This document shows, one piece after another, positions 31,053 through 36,696 of a stretch of 64,000 nucleotides of DNA; position 1 is the stretch's first letter, and each line of letters begins with the position of its first letter. Below the pieces are notes generated by a model. The model was not told the origin of the DNA. It ran no database searches and saw only the letters and a list, made by a program, of their open reading frames with translations. Source of the stretch: Hydrogenovibrio kuenenii DSM 12350 (GTDB lineage: Bacteria; Pseudomonadota; Gammaproteobacteria; Thiomicrospirales; Thiomicrospiraceae); assembly GCF_000526715.1 (NCBI RefSeq), contig NZ_JAGP01000001.1:2232001-2296000 (forward strand), in the 5' to 3' direction. The position numbers and the translations under genes were made by a program.

Positions 31053-31622
31053 ATGCATACTCCAATTACCCTATTACCAAGGTGGTACCCTCAATCTTTA
31101 CAGAGTCGTATGTCTATCGCTAAAAGCCTACAAAATTGGCTATTTGACCCTTCATCCTTAACCGCCAAACTCAAGCAGAAATGCCCTGAATTGACCGTAA
31201 AAGTCCTGTCAGAAAAATTAGAATACCCTCTTCCAGACGAAAGAATTCGATTAAACCTTAATCCAAAAAAGAAAGTATGGGTAAGGACTGTGACCTTAAA
31301 TTGCGGTGAAATTCCACTGGTTTATGCCAGAACAATCATTCCAAATTTCAATACAGGCAATCCATGGTTTTCCTTAAAAACATTAGGACATACACCTTTA
31401 GGTCACGTATTGTTTGCAAGGGATTTTCGGAATCACTATTCCCGCTCGAATTTTGAATGCCAAAATCAGCGAAATAATTGGCCTCACCTGAAAAAAGAGG
31501 CATATTTTGACCAAAAAGAAGGGAAAAGGCTAGCATCGAGACGGTGCGAGTTCTCAAAAAAAGGGAACTCGCTATTATTGACTGAGGTCTTTTTGCCTGA
31601 TAGTTTGGTACTATTTGACTAG
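31053..31622 (+). CDS. ubiC: chorismate pyruvate-lyase
   Basis: A 189-residue UbiC, which converts chorismate to 4-hydroxybenzoate and pyruvate, the first committed step of ubiquinone synthesis. Recognisable segments are VKVLSEKLEYPLPDE, the W/VRTVTLNCGEIPLVYARTIIP block with its conserved arginines, LGHTPLGHVLF, and the C-terminal ASRRCEFSKKGNSLLLTEVFLP with the catalytic glutamate. The ATG at 31053 follows recG closely; the frame is open further upstream inside recG. The gene end overlaps the convergent anti-sigma gene by 4 bases. ubiA lies elsewhere (37203). Confidence 0.88.
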   Translation: MHTPITLLPRWYPQSLQSRMSIAKSLQNWLFDPSSLTAKLKQKCPELTVKVLSEKLEYPLPDERIRLNLNPKKKVWVRTVTLNCGEIPLVYARTIIPNFNTGNPWFSLKTLGHTPLGHVLFARDFRNHYSRSNFECQNQRNNWPHLKKEAYFDQKEGKRLASRRCEFSKKGNSLLLTEVFLPDSLVLFD

Positions 31623-32341
31623 AACTTGTAGTAACGCCAACCCTGCTGCATTTTATTGACAATCTCACCAACGGCTGTACGATCGGACTCAACATTTGAA
31701 ATCAGCTTAACAGGGTGTCCAGCTTCAGCACGTCTTTCCAGCGCTCGCTTACACGCGAGTAGTTTAAGGTTGTCGTATTTCTTCAGCATCGCAATAATTT
31801 CAGCTCGATTTTTACTGGTTTTATCGAACAAATCAATACCATGATCATTTGCCACAATTTCAACTTGCGGTAACTGCTTGCTATCCGCTGTCGTGACAGA
31901 TGTTTTTTCCAATAACTCATTCGCTGTATGCAGCAATGCTTGTACTCGCGCTGGCTTGTCAGAGTCAATATGCAAAATAACCTTCTGCGGAGCGATATTT
32001 TCTGCCACTAAATTTGATGGGGTATTAAATGCTTGCCCCTGTCCTTCTTGGTTAGAAACCACAAAGCCCAAACCAAAGGCAAGAGTTAATGAGGCGGCTA
32101 TCGCCATACGAGACCCCCAACCTTTAGAGGTGTCGACATCCAGTTTAGGCATTGGTGGAATGTCTACTTTTTGATAATGTTCTAAAATCTGTTGTTTCAC
32201 TTTTCTTAGCTCACAAACCTCATCCTTCAACTCATCATCTAATCGCATTGCTTTTTCAAAAGCATTCTTTTCCTGCGAAGATAAGTCACCATCAATATAG
32301 GCATGCAGATTTTGAACAGTAAATTTATCAAATGCGTTCAT
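31619..32341 (-). CDS. membrane anti-sigma factor with a DsrE-like periplasmic domain
   Basis: A 240-residue protein. The N-terminal 60 residues (LHAYIDGDLSSQEKNAFEK...) look like the sigma-binding domain of ECF anti-sigma factors, without an obvious zinc motif. One membrane segment spans about residues 79-96. The C-terminal part (118-240) is DsrE-like: QKVILHIDSDKPARVQAL, VEIVANDHGIDLF, LKLLACKRALERR with Cys197, and a QQGWRYYKF end. The same cysteine position and end motif occur in the two secreted proteins encoded divergently. It starts 2 bases after the sigma-factor stop. It would hold the sigma factor until its periplasmic domain senses a ligand or redox change (inference). Confidence 0.8.
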   Translation of the reverse strand: MNAFDKFTVQNLHAYIDGDLSSQEKNAFEKAMRLDDELKDEVCELRKVKQQILEHYQKVDIPPMPKLDVDTSKGWGSRMAIAASLTLAFGLGFVVSNQEGQGQAFNTPSNLVAENIAPQKVILHIDSDKPARVQALLHTANELLEKTSVTTADSKQLPQVEIVANDHGIDLFDKTSKNRAEIIAMLKKYDNLKLLACKRALERRAEAGHPVKLISNVESDRTAVGEIVNKMQQGWRYYKF

Positions 32342-32343
32342 GA

Positions 32344-32916
32344 TTATTTACTCTTCTTAAGATTCACCACGTTATGGTGATAACGTGGGATATATTTTTC
32401 ACTCGTCACAAGTTTTTTCAGTTTATCACGTGCTCGTGATAATCGACTCATGACGGTTCCTACTGGTATTACCATGACTTCAGACACTTCCTGATAACTG
32501 TAGCCTTGCAGGTCAACCAGAATAATAATTTCCCTTTGATCGACAGGCAAACATCCAATGGCATCATGAATATTTTGAATCGCCTGTTTCTTGATATATA
32601 AAGTTTCAACTGACTCCGAATGCAATTCTTCAGAAAAGTCCTCCACATCAACCTGCTGCCAACGAGTGTTATGACGACAATTGTCATAAAACAAGTTGTG
32701 CATCACCTTGCATAACCAGCGGTCGATGTTCTCGAAACAAGATATTGTTTCCGCCTTTTGCAATGACTTGACCATGGTATCTTGAACCAAATCCTGAGCT
32801 AAAGAAGCATCTTGGCACCACGCGTATGCGATCCGATAGAGGTTCGCATAATGCGACTCCAGTACCGCATGCAACTTTGCTTGATTACTCTTTTGTTTTA
32901 TCCAGCTTTTTATCAT
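32344..32916 (-). CDS. ECF (extracytoplasmic function) RNA polymerase sigma factor
   Basis: A 190-residue ECF sigma factor. Region 2 is seen in LYRIAYAWCQDASLAQDLVQDTMVKSLQ and WLCKVMHNLFYD; region 4 in LPVDQREIIILVDLQGYSYQEVSEVMVIPVGTVMSRLSRARDKLK with a helix-turn-helix. The linker between them is typical and there is no extra C-terminal domain. It is followed after 2 bases by the anti-sigma gene, implying translational coupling. Its likely targets include the divergent DsrE-like/porin operon, which has a GGAAT...CGTT promoter. Confidence 0.92.
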   Translation of the reverse strand: MIKSWIKQKSNQAKLHAVLESHYANLYRIAYAWCQDASLAQDLVQDTMVKSLQKAETISCFENIDRWLCKVMHNLFYDNCRHNTRWQQVDVEDFSEELHSESVETLYIKKQAIQNIHDAIGCLPVDQREIIILVDLQGYSYQEVSEVMVIPVGTVMSRLSRARDKLKKLVTSEKYIPRYHHNVVNLKKSK

Positions 32917-33058
32917 TTTGATATCTTTAAAAAATTTCCTTTTTTCATATTAGGCAAAAAAAATTGAGATAACAAGCGTTAATTTCATATAAGAAAATAA
33001 TGATTTCCTTAAATAAATAGCGCTGATTTACTCATAGAAATTTGCAGTGGATGAAAAC

Positions 33059-33086
33059 GGAATATTTCCCGCACCCCTCCCGTTAT
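33059..33086 (+). promoter_or_regulatory. candidate ECF sigma promoter of the DsrE-like/porin operon
   Basis: GGAATA (33059-33064), 16 bases, CGTTAT (33081-33086). This resembles the GGAAC/CGT elements of many ECF sigma factors. Transcription would begin near 33093, 43 bases before the first gene. GGAATA also recurs inverted as TATTCC at 33084-33089, making a partial palindrome. Confidence 0.5.
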
Positions 33087-33135
33087 TCCCATGAGTACTC
33101 AAAGTTTAGACATTCAACTAGAAGGAAATCAGGTA

Positions 33136-33594
33136 ATGAAATTTTTAACCCATACGTTAGTTTTAAGCTGGCTTGTCGGCTTACTGCTATCGCCTTTAAC
33201 TATGGCTGCGCAAAAAGAAGCTCCTTTACCAGATACTTTTGCCACCCATAAAGTCGTTCTACAAATTAGCGATCCAAATCCTTTTAAACAAACTTTGGTA
33301 CTTAATGTTGCAGGAAATCTCATGAAGTATTACGGCGCTGGAGATGTCGATATCGAAATCGTCGCATTTGGCCCTGGCTTGCGCTTAATGATGGCTGGGA
33401 ACGTTAACACACCACGCATCAAATCCATGATGAGCTCCGGCATTCGTTTCAGTGCTTGCCAAAACACTTTGAACAACTACAGCAAAAAGCTTGGCTATAC
33501 ACCAAAGATTATCCCTGGTGTCCAAATGGTTCCAGCGGGTGCGGGTAGAATACTTCAGCTTAATGCTGCAGGCTATCAAATACTAAAACCATAA
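33136..33594 (+). CDS. secreted DsrE-like protein 1
   Basis: A 152-residue protein with a signal peptide (residues 1-25, cleavage after TMAA), so the mature protein is likely periplasmic. The ATG at 33136 is chosen over 33091 because AAGGAAATCAGG precedes it and the signal peptide starts there. The mature part has the DsrE/YchN-like order of strands: HKVVLQISDPNPFKQTLVL, VDIEIVAFGPGLRLMM, IRFSACQNTLNNYSKK with the conserved Cys (about residue 114), and GAGRILQLNAAGYQILKP. The family is known from sulfur-relay proteins, but secreted members have no settled function. It is the first gene of the presumed ECF-controlled operon. Confidence 0.82.
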   Translation: MKFLTHTLVLSWLVGLLLSPLTMAAQKEAPLPDTFATHKVVLQISDPNPFKQTLVLNVAGNLMKYYGAGDVDIEIVAFGPGLRLMMAGNVNTPRIKSMMSSGIRFSACQNTLNNYSKKLGYTPKIIPGVQMVPAGAGRILQLNAAGYQILKP

Positions 33595-33607
33595 GCGAGA
33601 GCATGGC

Positions 33608-34099
33608 ATGAAAAAACTATTGAAACCATCTTTATTCTTTCCTCTTCTGATTGCTGCTTTGTTCATGGCAAATTCAGCGCAGGCGAACAGCAGTCGTTAT
33701 GGGGAGCAAAAAGTCGTTTATCACATCAACTATGACGACATAAAGCGCCAAGCCAAAGTGCTACACAACATTCAGAACAACATCAACGCTGTTGGTGCTG
33801 ACCACATGAAAATCAAGGTTGTTCTTCATGGAAATGGTCTTTCTTTATTGCTATTACCTAAGGCGTTAAAGAGCCATCCAAAGTTCAATGCTGCCAATGC
33901 AACCCCTGAAATGCAGCAAAAAATCGACTCCCTAAAAATGGAAGGGGTGGTTTTCGATGTTTGTGCAAACACGCTAAAAGGTAAGGCAGTTGATTATAAA
34001 AAGGATCTTTACGACGTTGATCCTAAAGATGTTGTTCCTAGTGGCGTTGCCGAATTGGTCTACTTACAGCAGCGTGGGTATGCCTATCTAAGACCATAA
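33608..34099 (+). CDS. secreted DsrE-like protein 2
   Basis: A 163-residue paralogue of the preceding protein, 13 bases downstream. It has a signal peptide (residues 1-26, ending NSAQA) and the same layout: QKVVYHINYDDIKRQAKVLHN, MKIKVVLHGNGLSLLLLP, VVFDVCANTLKG with Cys near residue 121, and VAELVYLQQRGYAYLRP. Compared with protein 1 it carries an insertion before the cysteine strand (KFNAANATPEMQQKIDSL). The adjacent paralogues may form a hetero-oligomer, as DsrE-family proteins often do (inference). Confidence 0.82.
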   Translation: MKKLLKPSLFFPLLIAALFMANSAQANSSRYGEQKVVYHINYDDIKRQAKVLHNIQNNINAVGADHMKIKVVLHGNGLSLLLLPKALKSHPKFNAANATPEMQQKIDSLKMEGVVFDVCANTLKGKAVDYKKDLYDVDPKDVVPSGVAELVYLQQRGYAYLRP

Positions 34100-34187
34100 A
34101 ACTAATAAAACAGATAACGCAAAAAGATTGCTGAATGTTTCAGCAATCCAAGATGCATTTACCTCAAATTCAGAAGAGACGATACTT

Positions 34188-35471
34188 ATGAAAAAGCATT
34201 TATTGAAAAAAGTACTTCCGATCGCTATTTTAGCTGCAACAGCTTCAACAAGCGTTCAAGCAGCAAACTGGCTCATGTTACAAGGTACAGAACCCGCCAA
34301 TCAAGCACCAAGAGCAAAAGTGTGGGGGTTCTTGCAATTGGATTACCAATCAACTGATGATACAAAATTGAAAGCTGGACCTTATAAAGGCAAATCAGCA
34401 GCCTTTAACCAAGTTGCACCACAGCTTTCATCTCCTAGCAGCTTTAATGTCAAGCGTGCTCGTATTGGTGTCAGAGGTAACAACTTTCCTCTAGATCCAA
34501 AGGTGAATTACTTCTTACTTACAGAGTTTGGAAATAATGGAATTACTACAGGCGGAAAGGCCTCGCAGGGCCAACTAACAGATGCCAGCGTTACGTTAAA
34601 TCATATCCCTGGAGCTCGCATCCGTGTAGGGCTCTTTAAAACACCTGGTTCAGAAAAAGCTATGCAAGGTATAGGTGTTTATAATTATGTCAACTTCACG
34701 AGTGTGGTTGATAGACTTCTACTTGAACGCTCTTTTACCAATTCAACCGGAGATACCACTCGTAGTCAACCTGTTAGCGCCTTCCGTGATACAGGTGTAG
34801 AAGTGTTTGATAGCTTTAATCTTAAAGGTTGGGACACTAGTTATGCTGTCATGATGGGTAATGGTAATGGTTTAGCCATGACAGACAACAATAAGTCGAA
34901 AGATACCTATTTATATCTTTCTACTGAAAAGGTATTTGGGGCTTCAAAAGGGCCTCGTCGCCACGGTCTGAAGTTCTATGCCTGGTCTCAGAATGGCAAG
35001 CGTACCATTAATATTAGTGGCGTTGCAACAGATAAAGATCGTAGCCGTTCAGGCCTAGGAACCACCTATTTTGACGGTAAATACCGTATGACGGCGGAAT
35101 ACATCACTGCAAAAGGCATGATTTATGGTGGAACAAAAGGTGCTGGATTGCCTGCCGATGGTGCATCATTTAGCGTTCAGACTGATGAAGAGGCAAATGG
35201 TTACTATGTTGATCTAGGTTACCGCGTAAAGCCAAATATTGAGCTAAATGCGCGATATGACTTCCTTGATAGCGGAACAAAAGTGGCTGCGAATGAACGC
35301 AAATTCACAAACACCACACTGGGTGCACAGTATTTCTTTAACAAGAAAACAACTTTGATGGCGGATTATGAAATTCGTAAAATCGAAGCTCCAGCTGGAA
35401 ACGCTACTGTAAAAAGTATCTTAGATTCTTTGGATAACCGCTTGGCGCTTCAGCTAAGAGTTGTCTTCTAG
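34188..35471 (+). CDS. porin of the OprO/OprP-like type
   Basis: A 427-residue outer-membrane porin. The ATG at 34188 after AGAAGAGA gives a clear signal peptide ending in SVQA (residue about 25); the frame is open upstream to 34128. The mature protein begins with a short segment, then GFLQLDY, and it has RARIGVRGNN and GARIRVGLFKTPGSEKA, as in phosphate-selective-porin-like proteins, with many alternating strands and a terminal LALQLRVVF ending in phenylalanine. It lies 88 bases after the second DsrE-like gene with only a weak sign of separate transcription, and a terminator follows. The substrate cannot be read from sequence. Confidence 0.82.
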   Translation: MKKHLLKKVLPIAILAATASTSVQAANWLMLQGTEPANQAPRAKVWGFLQLDYQSTDDTKLKAGPYKGKSAAFNQVAPQLSSPSSFNVKRARIGVRGNNFPLDPKVNYFLLTEFGNNGITTGGKASQGQLTDASVTLNHIPGARIRVGLFKTPGSEKAMQGIGVYNYVNFTSVVDRLLLERSFTNSTGDTTRSQPVSAFRDTGVEVFDSFNLKGWDTSYAVMMGNGNGLAMTDNNKSKDTYLYLSTEKVFGASKGPRRHGLKFYAWSQNGKRTINISGVATDKDRSRSGLGTTYFDGKYRMTAEYITAKGMIYGGTKGAGLPADGASFSVQTDEEANGYYVDLGYRVKPNIELNARYDFLDSGTKVAANERKFTNTTLGAQYFFNKKTTLMADYEIRKIEAPAGNATVKSILDSLDNRLALQLRVVF

Positions 35472-35497: not shown

Positions 35498-35535
35498 CCT
35501 GCTACTTCTGTCTCCATTGGTAGCAGGCTTTTTTA
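35498..35535 (+). terminator. rho-independent terminator of the DsrE-like/porin operon
   Basis: CCTGCTAC (35498-35505), 14-base loop, GTAGCAGG (35520-35527) and then CTTTTTT. It overlaps the stop of the convergent gene by a few bases. Confidence 0.8.
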
Positions 35536-36696
35536 CTTCTCAAACTTTCTGTCATAAAACTGAGCTTCTAACATAAATGTTATGTTCGGATCAGCCTTTC
35601 TAAAATCCGTATCCTGGTTAAAATCCACTCTCGGTTGGATTTCAAAAAACAACCACTTCTTATAAATACGTTCACGCCATTGAAAGCCGGTATGGTAAGA
35701 AACCAAATGCGGGCCAACATCCTTGGTATCCCAATCCCATCCGACATGGTAGGCAATCGCTCGATGCACATTCATCGTCTGATAGAAATAAAATACCTGA
35801 TGAAGCTCATAATATTGTTCCTTATCCCACCATGTTCCTTGAGTTTCCGAACGCAATAAATTTTCTTGGTTGAACTGGTAATCAAACGTTTGTTTAGAAG
35901 TTAATCCGACACCTGCATAGCTTTCCCAGAACAAGTCCTGCACCATCCGGCTATAAACTCGATCATTCAATTGCCATTTGTAGGTACCTTTAATTCGTGC
36001 ATATGGATCGGGACTGATGCCACGAAAGTTCAACCCGAAACCAACAAAAGAGTTGGTATAGTTTTTTACTTCGAGCGCATAACGTAACCCTACCGTTGCT
36101 GCGGTATCATTATTCGTTGCTGTTCCTGAAAACTGGTTATTAGAAGTGGTATTTGAAGCTGAACCTGTATTTGCATAATCGCTCAATGAGTTTTCAGCAG
36201 ACTGCACAATCAAGTTCCATCGCTTATTCGTTCTGGGAAGCTCGAACTTTCCTCTAACTTTAACTGTGGTATCGATTTTTCCATTTTCATGAAAAGTAAT
36301 GGGGGTCATGACATCAAGACGACTGCCTTGTGTTCGATCAAAGTCTTCCTCAGATCCAAAAAAAGCATCTGCCGACTCACCGACATCTTCTACATAAGAC
36401 CCGACCCAACCCTGAACCTTATCTAAATAATTCAGTGTCGAATTCATCAACGGACTAGAAACACCTTCAAAAAAATACTGCTTATCCTTTGTGGGTAATG
36501 GTGTCTTATCATTTACTATCGGCAACGGTGTTTTTTCTTGCGTTGTCGGCAAAGTCGGTTTCGTATCGGTCGTTTGAGAAGCACTTGAGGATGTGTTTGT
36601 CGCTTTGGACTCAGCAAGCGTCTGCGCAAAACTTACAACAGGCCATATCAGCATGCAGGCGAAACAAGGTATAATGAATTTAGAACTTATCAGCAA
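35533..36696 (-). CDS. exported protein, probable outer-membrane barrel, function unknown
   Basis: A 387-residue protein with a signal sequence ending in SFAQ at residue 25, then a low-complexity Ser/Thr/Pro region (about 26-70) and a C-terminal half rich in aromatic residues with alternating strand patterns (ELHQVFYFYQTMNVHRAIAY and similar). This suggests a beta-barrel or large beta-sheet protein. The start is a TTG at 36696; the next ATG (36654) would truncate the signal peptide. The divergent neighbour begins only 7 bases away, so the promoters must lie inside each other's coding sequence. Confidence 0.6.
   Translation of the reverse strand: MLISSKFIIPCFACMLIWPVVSFAQTLAESKATNTSSSASQTTDTKPTLPTTQEKTPLPIVNDKTPLPTKDKQYFFEGVSSPLMNSTLNYLDKVQGWVGSYVEDVGESADAFFGSEEDFDRTQGSRLDVMTPITFHENGKIDTTVKVRGKFELPRTNKRWNLIVQSAENSLSDYANTGSASNTTSNNQFSGTATNNDTAATVGLRYALEVKNYTNSFVGFGLNFRGISPDPYARIKGTYKWQLNDRVYSRMVQDLFWESYAGVGLTSKQTFDYQFNQENLLRSETQGTWWDKEQYYELHQVFYFYQTMNVHRAIAYHVGWDWDTKDVGPHLVSYHTGFQWRERIYKKWLFFEIQPRVDFNQDTDFRKADPNITFMLEAQFYDRKFEK

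Follow-up and report, generated by a model that had tools for sequence, protein, structure and literature searches.

Among the extracytoplasmic function (ECF) sigma factors, RpoE1 and RpoE4 of Sinorhizobium meliloti and the cognate ECF factors of Starkeya novella, which belong to the ECF26 group, are described in the accessible parts of two reports as responding to sulfite-generating compounds (PMC3511301, PMC6527743). The present analysis concerns a 64,000-nucleotide window of the genome of Hydrogenovibrio kuenenii DSM 12350 (contig NZ_JAGP01000001.1, positions 2,232,001 to 2,296,000; coordinates below are those of the window unless stated otherwise). It carries the genes of an ECF sigma factor (SF) and of an adjoining anti-sigma factor (AS), which face a divergent operon for two secreted DsrE-like proteins (D1 and D2) and a porin. 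Comparison of sequences indicates that this system is genuine and conserved and that it is linked to sulfur oxidation. To our knowledge, sulfur sensing by sulfur-oxidising Gammaproteobacteria is poorly known, and the locus appears to offer a compact conserved switch in which a sulfur-carrier fold is coupled to an ECF sigma factor and for which the likely targets, promoter and sensing residue can be named. The genome is 2.45 Mb in size, and the closest named relative found is Hydrogenovibrio sp. JE_KL2 (82% identity in AS).

An earlier note on this DNA, made from the letters alone, had placed the sigma and anti-sigma genes 2 bases apart and facing two DsrE-like genes and a porin gene, and these genes and their coordinates are borne out. 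AS (240 residues) occupies 31619-32341 and SF (190 residues) 32344-32916, both on the minus strand; the Pfam matches Sigma70_r2 (residues 20-85) and Sigma70_r4_2 (residues 114-166) give SF the layout of an ECF (group IV) sigma factor. On the plus strand lie D1 (33136-33594, 152 residues), D2 (33608-34099) and a porin of the OprO/P type (34188-35471; Porin_O_P E 3.7e-10). The open reading frame (ORF) of D1 is itself open from 33091, and its start was moved to the ATG at 33136 because the -10 element of the promoter described below ends at 33084 and the orthologues start at that ATG. The listed ORF of the porin starts from a TTG at 34128, and the ATG at 34188 opens a signal-peptide-like sequence; a profile of this porin gave no match to solved structures at E<=0.01. 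The motifs that had been quoted as DsrE-like are all present: LKLLACKRAL with Cys197 in AS (codon at 31751-31753, minus strand), SACQNTL with Cys108 in D1 and DVCANTL with Cys119 in D2. The same holds for the C-terminal ends of the form G-(W/Y)-x-x-x-(K/R)(P/F), which are read as GWRYYKF, GYQILKP and GYAYLRP among the three proteins.

Profile matches and structural modelling together indicate that residues 118-240 of AS (31622-31990, minus strand) adopt the DsrE fold, as had been proposed. Pfam recognizes DsrE in D2 (E 9.7e-9) and weakly in D1 (0.0062, below cut-off). In the AS C-terminus it gives no DsrE match at E<=1 and NCBIfam is likewise blind, so that profiles were needed; the single Pfam match of AS at E<=1 is a weak zinc-finger one (zf-HC2, 0.0037, below cut-off). 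A profile of 36 family AS proteins matches the PDB chains 1L1S (E 5.9e-12), 2PD2 (8e-6) and 8UJA (3.2e-5) over positions 119-231 or 122-231, and Cys197 aligns with the cysteine of the matched DsrE-like structures (MTH1491, ST0148). The D1 and D2 profiles match the same chains, and profile-profile comparison by hhalign links AS with D1 at 97.7% (E 2.2e-12), AS with D2 at 93.6% (2.1e-7) and D1 with D2 at 99.1%. The model of AS, made with the window and L037 sequences, has a mean predicted local distance difference test score (pLDDT) of 65.7 and a predicted template modelling score of 0.49; by block, pLDDT reaches 86-92 over most of residues 121-240, with 57-77 at 141-160 and 70 at 221-230. It superimposes on 1L1S with Z 17.1 and a root-mean-square deviation (rmsd) of 1.9 over 110 residues, and on chains of YchN, DsrEFH and TusBCD with Z 12.4-13.1. 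The AlphaFold2 alignment (A4) presupposed the homology of AS, D1 and D2, and the profile matches are independent of it. The AS alignment (A1) has 36 rows, L039 and the split gene of L072 (genome G034) being left out. Those of D1 (A2) and D2 (A3) omit two and one, respectively, of 30 proteins each, and A6 and A7 are selections. In a quick tree of 119 DsrE domains, built on few columns, AS, D1 and D2 each lie on one side of a branch (Shimodaira-Hasegawa-like approximate likelihood ratio test, SH-aLRT, 95, 96 and 94), a split that is compatible with a single old fusion.

The single membrane helix claimed for AS corresponds to one hydrophobic segment, residues 79-97 (32051-32107, minus strand). 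Among 58 aligned AS proteins, 51 have one such segment, five have two and two have none. Averaged over the 56 proteins with at least one segment, the net charge changes from +2.8 ahead of the first segment to -0.5 beyond it, and for this reason the N-terminus is placed inside and the DsrE domain outside the membrane. The segment itself is not resolved in the model (pLDDT about 30). Cys197 is invariant, both in the family (36/36) and in the 58 aligned AS proteins, in each of which it is the only cysteine of the predicted periplasmic part; exactly one cysteine is likewise found in 27 of 28 mature D1 proteins and in all 29 of D2. Residues 1-58 (32168-32341, minus strand) form a predicted sigma-binding region of three helices, to which weak family and model matches point: the NCBIfam antisigma match has E 1.1e-6, below its cut-off, the helices are modelled at a pLDDT of 45-70, and the first 73 residues compare weakly with RsiW (Z 6.8, rmsd 6.5). 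The HxxxCxxC motif of zinc-binding anti-sigma (ZAS) factors is not in AS, whose only cysteines are Cys43 and Cys197. Two traits of class I (anti-sigma domain, ASD) factors, adjacency to the sigma gene and a single membrane segment, are both present.

The arrangement recurs in other genomes. Any match to AS was found in 40 of 62 genomes of the family and a full match in 37, one of them split in two frames; SF adjoins AS in all 37 further family loci, which come from 36 further genomes (L037 and L039 being one and the same, and L075 dropped as an unrelated weak match). With the window included there are 38 family loci, and in 32 of them a D1, D2 or porin gene faces SF. The remaining six comprise two at contig ends and four in which D2 lies beyond AS, away from SF. 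AS and D1 co-occur in the 62 genomes (both 31, AS only 6, D1 only 1, neither 24; p 1.5e-10), and in the one genome with D1 only (G048) SF is present and runs off the contig end. Full-length AS was also found in 65 of 369 evenly sampled Gammaproteobacteria with 39 family labels. These genomes were chosen by hand from model matches spanning position <=10 to >=230, with at most seven candidates scored per genome; G282, where AS is in two pieces of one frame, and the partial matches of G150, G318 and G323 were left out of the count. The class-wide set has 62 AS copies from 60 loci; 42 of the copies adjoin D1, D2, porin or a SoxB-like gene: 30 face D1, four a porin only and one the SoxB-like gene, and seven have only D2 or D1 after AS. 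A further 19 have none of these, and one, at a contig start, is without SF. In L159 and in L173, both pairs of the tandem went into this count as facing one shared D1. Flanking genes are otherwise mixed, as judged from 132 of 135 chosen neighbours scanned and the 25 commonest of 152 families. Among 398 sampled genomes of the phylum, again with at most seven candidates scored in each, the three full-length AS matches are all from Gammaproteobacteria. The 17 other-class loci examined among the partial matches hold DsrE proteins without an anti-sigma part, and no SF lies within about 1.5 kb of them.

Some loci depart from the common form. The AS of L072, split in two frames, is either a broken gene or a draft sequence error, and SF, D1 and D2 are present beside it. 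Two tandem SF-AS pairs lie within about 3 kb in L159 and L173 (G286 and G170); one pair faces D1-porin, and D2 comes after the other. The switch is duplicated there, and its targets are perhaps divided. In L244, L247 and L178 (and L182, about 2 kb off) an AS without a DsrE or porin neighbour is convergent to a gene that by eye encodes a GroEL-like chaperonin.

Sequence evidence strongly supports the view that the SF-AS system belongs to sulfur-oxidising Gammaproteobacteria, a link that had been guessed only from fold names. In the even sample of 369 genomes, with SoxB and DsrA called at E<=1e-50 (4 SoxB and 6 DsrA genomes fall under the curated cut-offs), SoxB was found in 64 of 65 AS genomes versus 88 of 304 others (p 5.6e-28; this and the following p values are uncorrected for relatedness). 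The corresponding counts for DsrA are 51/65 versus 66/304 (p 7.7e-18), and for either marker 65/65 versus 100/304 (p 3.3e-27); neither SoxB nor DsrA was found in 14 control genomes. SoxB is present in the uncounted G282, and each of the three genomes with a partial AS has SoxB or DsrA (G318 DsrA only). Sox or thiosulfate-transport genes also stand at three of the loci themselves (L154, L242 and L243). In two genomes of one genus, G216 and G326, soxX-Y-Z-A-B come after SF-AS at a distance of no more than about 65 bases and are read in its direction, and in both genomes each of the five genes exceeds its NCBIfam cut-off. D1 lies on the other side, and promoter scores are 15.1 before SF and 15.6 before D1. 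In G227 the SF-AS system has SoxB (over cut-off) and a second D1 next to it, and D1-porin there precedes a thioredoxin-like gene and one for a TsuA/YeeE-like protein (115.6 bits, short of the cut-off of 400). In G143, the gene that faces SF under a site of score 21.6 belongs to the SoxB superfamily, although at 175 bits it falls short of the SoxB cut-off of 550.

The earlier note also had the sigma factor switching on the DsrE/porin operon. From the conserved promoter, SF very probably transcribes D1-D2-porin from the sequence GGAATA-N15/16-CGT(T). ECF-type promoters have a GGAA -35 element and a CGT-type -10 element. Across the intergenic regions of the 32 family loci, GGAAT-N17-CGTT is the best common bipartite word, present in 24 versus a best of four in one shuffle, and GGAATA-N15/16-CGT is found before the gene facing SF in all 32 (N16 in 28, N15 in 4), a count that is no independent test because the matrix was trained on those regions. 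In the window the site is GGAATA-N16-CGTT at 33059-33084 on the plus strand (score 16.0). Outside the training set, D2 scores 23.3 in all four loci in which it lies beside AS and SF is unfaced (L050, L057, L067 and L068). Class-wide, a score of at least 12 is reached before 15 of 25 D1 and 20 of 41 SF genes, versus 7 of 330 shuffles and 4 of 321 other ORFs. Across the whole Hydrogenovibrio genome the pattern has 13 matches versus nine for the reversed pattern, which is near chance, and the regulon is therefore not readable from the promoter pattern alone.

Two further sites in the same genome attract attention. One, at 661033-661058 of the contig (score 21.3), lies just upstream of a third secreted DsrE-like gene (region G000:C1:660450-661058; L104, L003), with a ferredoxin-like gene and a PiT-like permease, both named by eye, downstream. 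It is found in this genome, G007 and G012, and no like site was seen in the other 35 of 38 genomes tested; G020, which is without AS, has a site of 15.7 far upstream. The other (L105:5185-5210, G000:C1:768185-768210; score 23.6) precedes soxB by about 155 bases but is oriented away from it, towards the end of the preceding gene. Its position is kept in G007 (17.5) and G012 (13.1), and it was not found at the other soxB copies searched.

Because its outer part resembles a sulfur carrier and secreted proteins of the same fold and a porin adjoin it, AS may be a periplasmic sulfur sensor. We consider it moderately probable, from the sequences, that SF drives the DsrE/porin operon while AS senses periplasmic reduced sulfur through Cys197, perhaps loaded by D1 and D2. 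In the proposed sequence of events, AS would hold SF at the inner membrane, its N-terminal helices binding SF in the cytoplasm as family knowledge suggests. Sequence, charge and model point to one helix that crosses the membrane and a single-cysteine DsrE domain in the periplasm. Reduced sulfur there would load Cys197 as a persulfide or S-thiosulfonate, either directly or by transfer from the homologous carriers D1 and D2, which may oligomerise with the AS domain as DsrE-family proteins do. The loaded AS would change shape or be cleaved, and the freed SF would transcribe the divergent D1-D2-porin operon from its GGAATA-N15/16-CGT(T) promoter. The porin would admit a sulfur anion, whose sulfur D1 and D2 would bind or carry within the periplasm, a handling that could feed back through the same DsrE fold. 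If this is true, periplasmic DsrE proteins gain a signalling role. A more specific version, in which D1 and D2 take up sulfur from thiosulfate or polysulfide and hand it on to the DsrE domain of AS, so that SF is released by a transmembrane sulfane-sulfur receptor, can be put forward only tentatively. Such a receptor would be a widespread regulator of Sox-type oxidation in Gammaproteobacteria, with DsrE proteins as signalling parts as well as sulfur carriers.

Several findings weigh against the sensing of reduced sulfur by AS with control of the DsrE/porin operon by SF. That the signal is sulfur, what state Cys197 takes and that AS contacts D1 or D2 are all parts that we infer. Common ancestry enters the genome counts, the 65 AS genomes carrying 39 family labels, and SoxB or DsrA also occurs in 100 of the 304 genomes for which no AS was counted, so that sulfur oxidation does not require the SF-AS system. 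The organism's own sox genes are not beside SF-AS, and the strong site near its soxB points away. Among the class-wide AS copies, 19 of 62 are without an adjoining D1, D2, porin or SoxB-like gene; some of these are at contig ends, L168 and L181 have a D1 or D2 hidden by over-long ORFs, and others are truly without. Autoregulation is usual for ECF pairs, but a promoter score of 12 is reached by only six of 38 family SF genes, and autoregulation is not seen in the window, since SF scores 4.5 there. Ten of 25 class-wide D1 genes also score below 12, and the promoter is found before one of seven D2 genes of the class set and five of 30 in the family, where most sit behind D1. In L058 and L059 the extra D2 copies are without it, as are both D1 genes of G227, although the SF of G227 scores 21.6.

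Other explanations share part of this evidence. Sensing through Cys197 would not be needed if the DsrE domain of AS measured the amount or loading of D1 and D2 through mixed oligomers; D1 and D2 would then be co-regulators, for example feedback inhibitors. The homology of the AS domain to D1 and D2 fits such protein-binding control, as do the adjacency of D1 or D2 to 37 of 62 class-wide AS copies, the promoter before D2 in the four unfaced family loci, and the hetero-oligomers that such folds form in DsrEFH and TusBCD, both of which are among the fold matches of the AS model. However, the AS domain forms its own branch apart from D1 and D2 (with the SH-aLRT values given above), four class loci have a porin only and no D gene beside AS (L155, L160, L250 and L253), and binding alone does not call for a cysteine that is invariant in 58 of 58 proteins. 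We regard this explanation as rather doubtful.

Two forms of stress response are further alternatives. If AS were an RseA-like factor that frees its sigma under envelope or porin stress, with the DsrE domain as a structural cap, the association with sulfur would come from ancestry. A porin among the target genes and the frequency with which ECF pairs sense envelope stress speak for it; the presence of SoxB or DsrA in every one of the 65 counted AS genomes, the sox and thiosulfate-transport genes at L154, L242 and L243 and the invariant single cysteine argue against it, and we hold it to be very improbable. A response to sulfite or thiol-oxidant stress like that of the ECF26 factor RpoE4 would make the signal a toxic by-product, which D1 and D2 detoxify rather than feed into metabolism. 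The known ECF sulfur sensors do respond to sulfite, as far as the available text goes (PMC3511301, PMC6527743), but no sulfite oxidase was seen among the 25 commonest of 152 neighbour families and the proteins at the followed loci, and the linkage observed is to sox and to a thiosulfate-transporter-like gene. Sulfite or thiol-oxidant stress is an unlikely signal for AS, and sensing of reduced sulfur through Cys197 is the reading that we prefer.

The surroundings of the operon show some additional features. A terminator had been placed after the porin: a terminator-like stem can be read from the sequence at 35498-35534 on the plus strand (CCTGCTAC...GTAGCAGG, followed by T6), but the terminator scan did not list it because its 14-base loop exceeds the limit of the scan. 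An 11-pair hairpin at 34125-34149, between D2 and the porin, has a T run on the minus strand only and might shift the ratio of porin to D2 transcript. At 35533-36696 a convergent gene encodes a putative outer-membrane protein; it adjoins the porin in L038-L042 and is present without a porin in L044.

The published record can be compared with this system in three respects. A text search for DsrE gives false matches in PMC2729926 and PMC3511301, where the word is DsRed; judging from the parts available, PMC10512742 is an unrelated co-mention, PMC7406223 contains no Dsr, PMC7787665 is not relevant and PMC13047784 deals with other DsrE-like proteins. Among the literature matches listed, by their titles and the starts of their abstracts, no DsrE-domain anti-sigma factor is described, and the ECF reclassification, which was outside the search, may list the group; in the literature searched, to that extent, a DsrE sensor domain on an ECF anti-sigma factor had not been met before. 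By analogy, ECF26 RpoE1/RpoE4 appear to be the nearest functional precedent. Like SF-AS, they combine an ECF sigma factor with an adjoining anti-sigma factor, and in the accessible parts of the reports they are active in thiosulfate and sulfite metabolism with few targets besides themselves; unlike here, those targets are the sulfite oxidases SorT and SorAB, and the same parts mention no DsrE domain (PMC3511301, PMC6527743). With membrane anti-sigma systems such as RsiV, which senses lysozyme, RseA and CnrY/CnrX, AS would share an inside sigma-binding part, one membrane helix and an outside sensor. It differs from them in that the putative sensor is predicted to be a DsrE domain, a case not found among the literature matches listed. 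With DsrEFH, TusBCD, YchN and the MTH1491-ST0148 branch it has the fold in common, and in MTH1491 and ST0148 the aligned cysteine as well. Those of them that have been studied are cytoplasmic sulfur carriers, whereas the DsrE domain of AS is predicted to be periplasmic and is fused to an anti-sigma factor.

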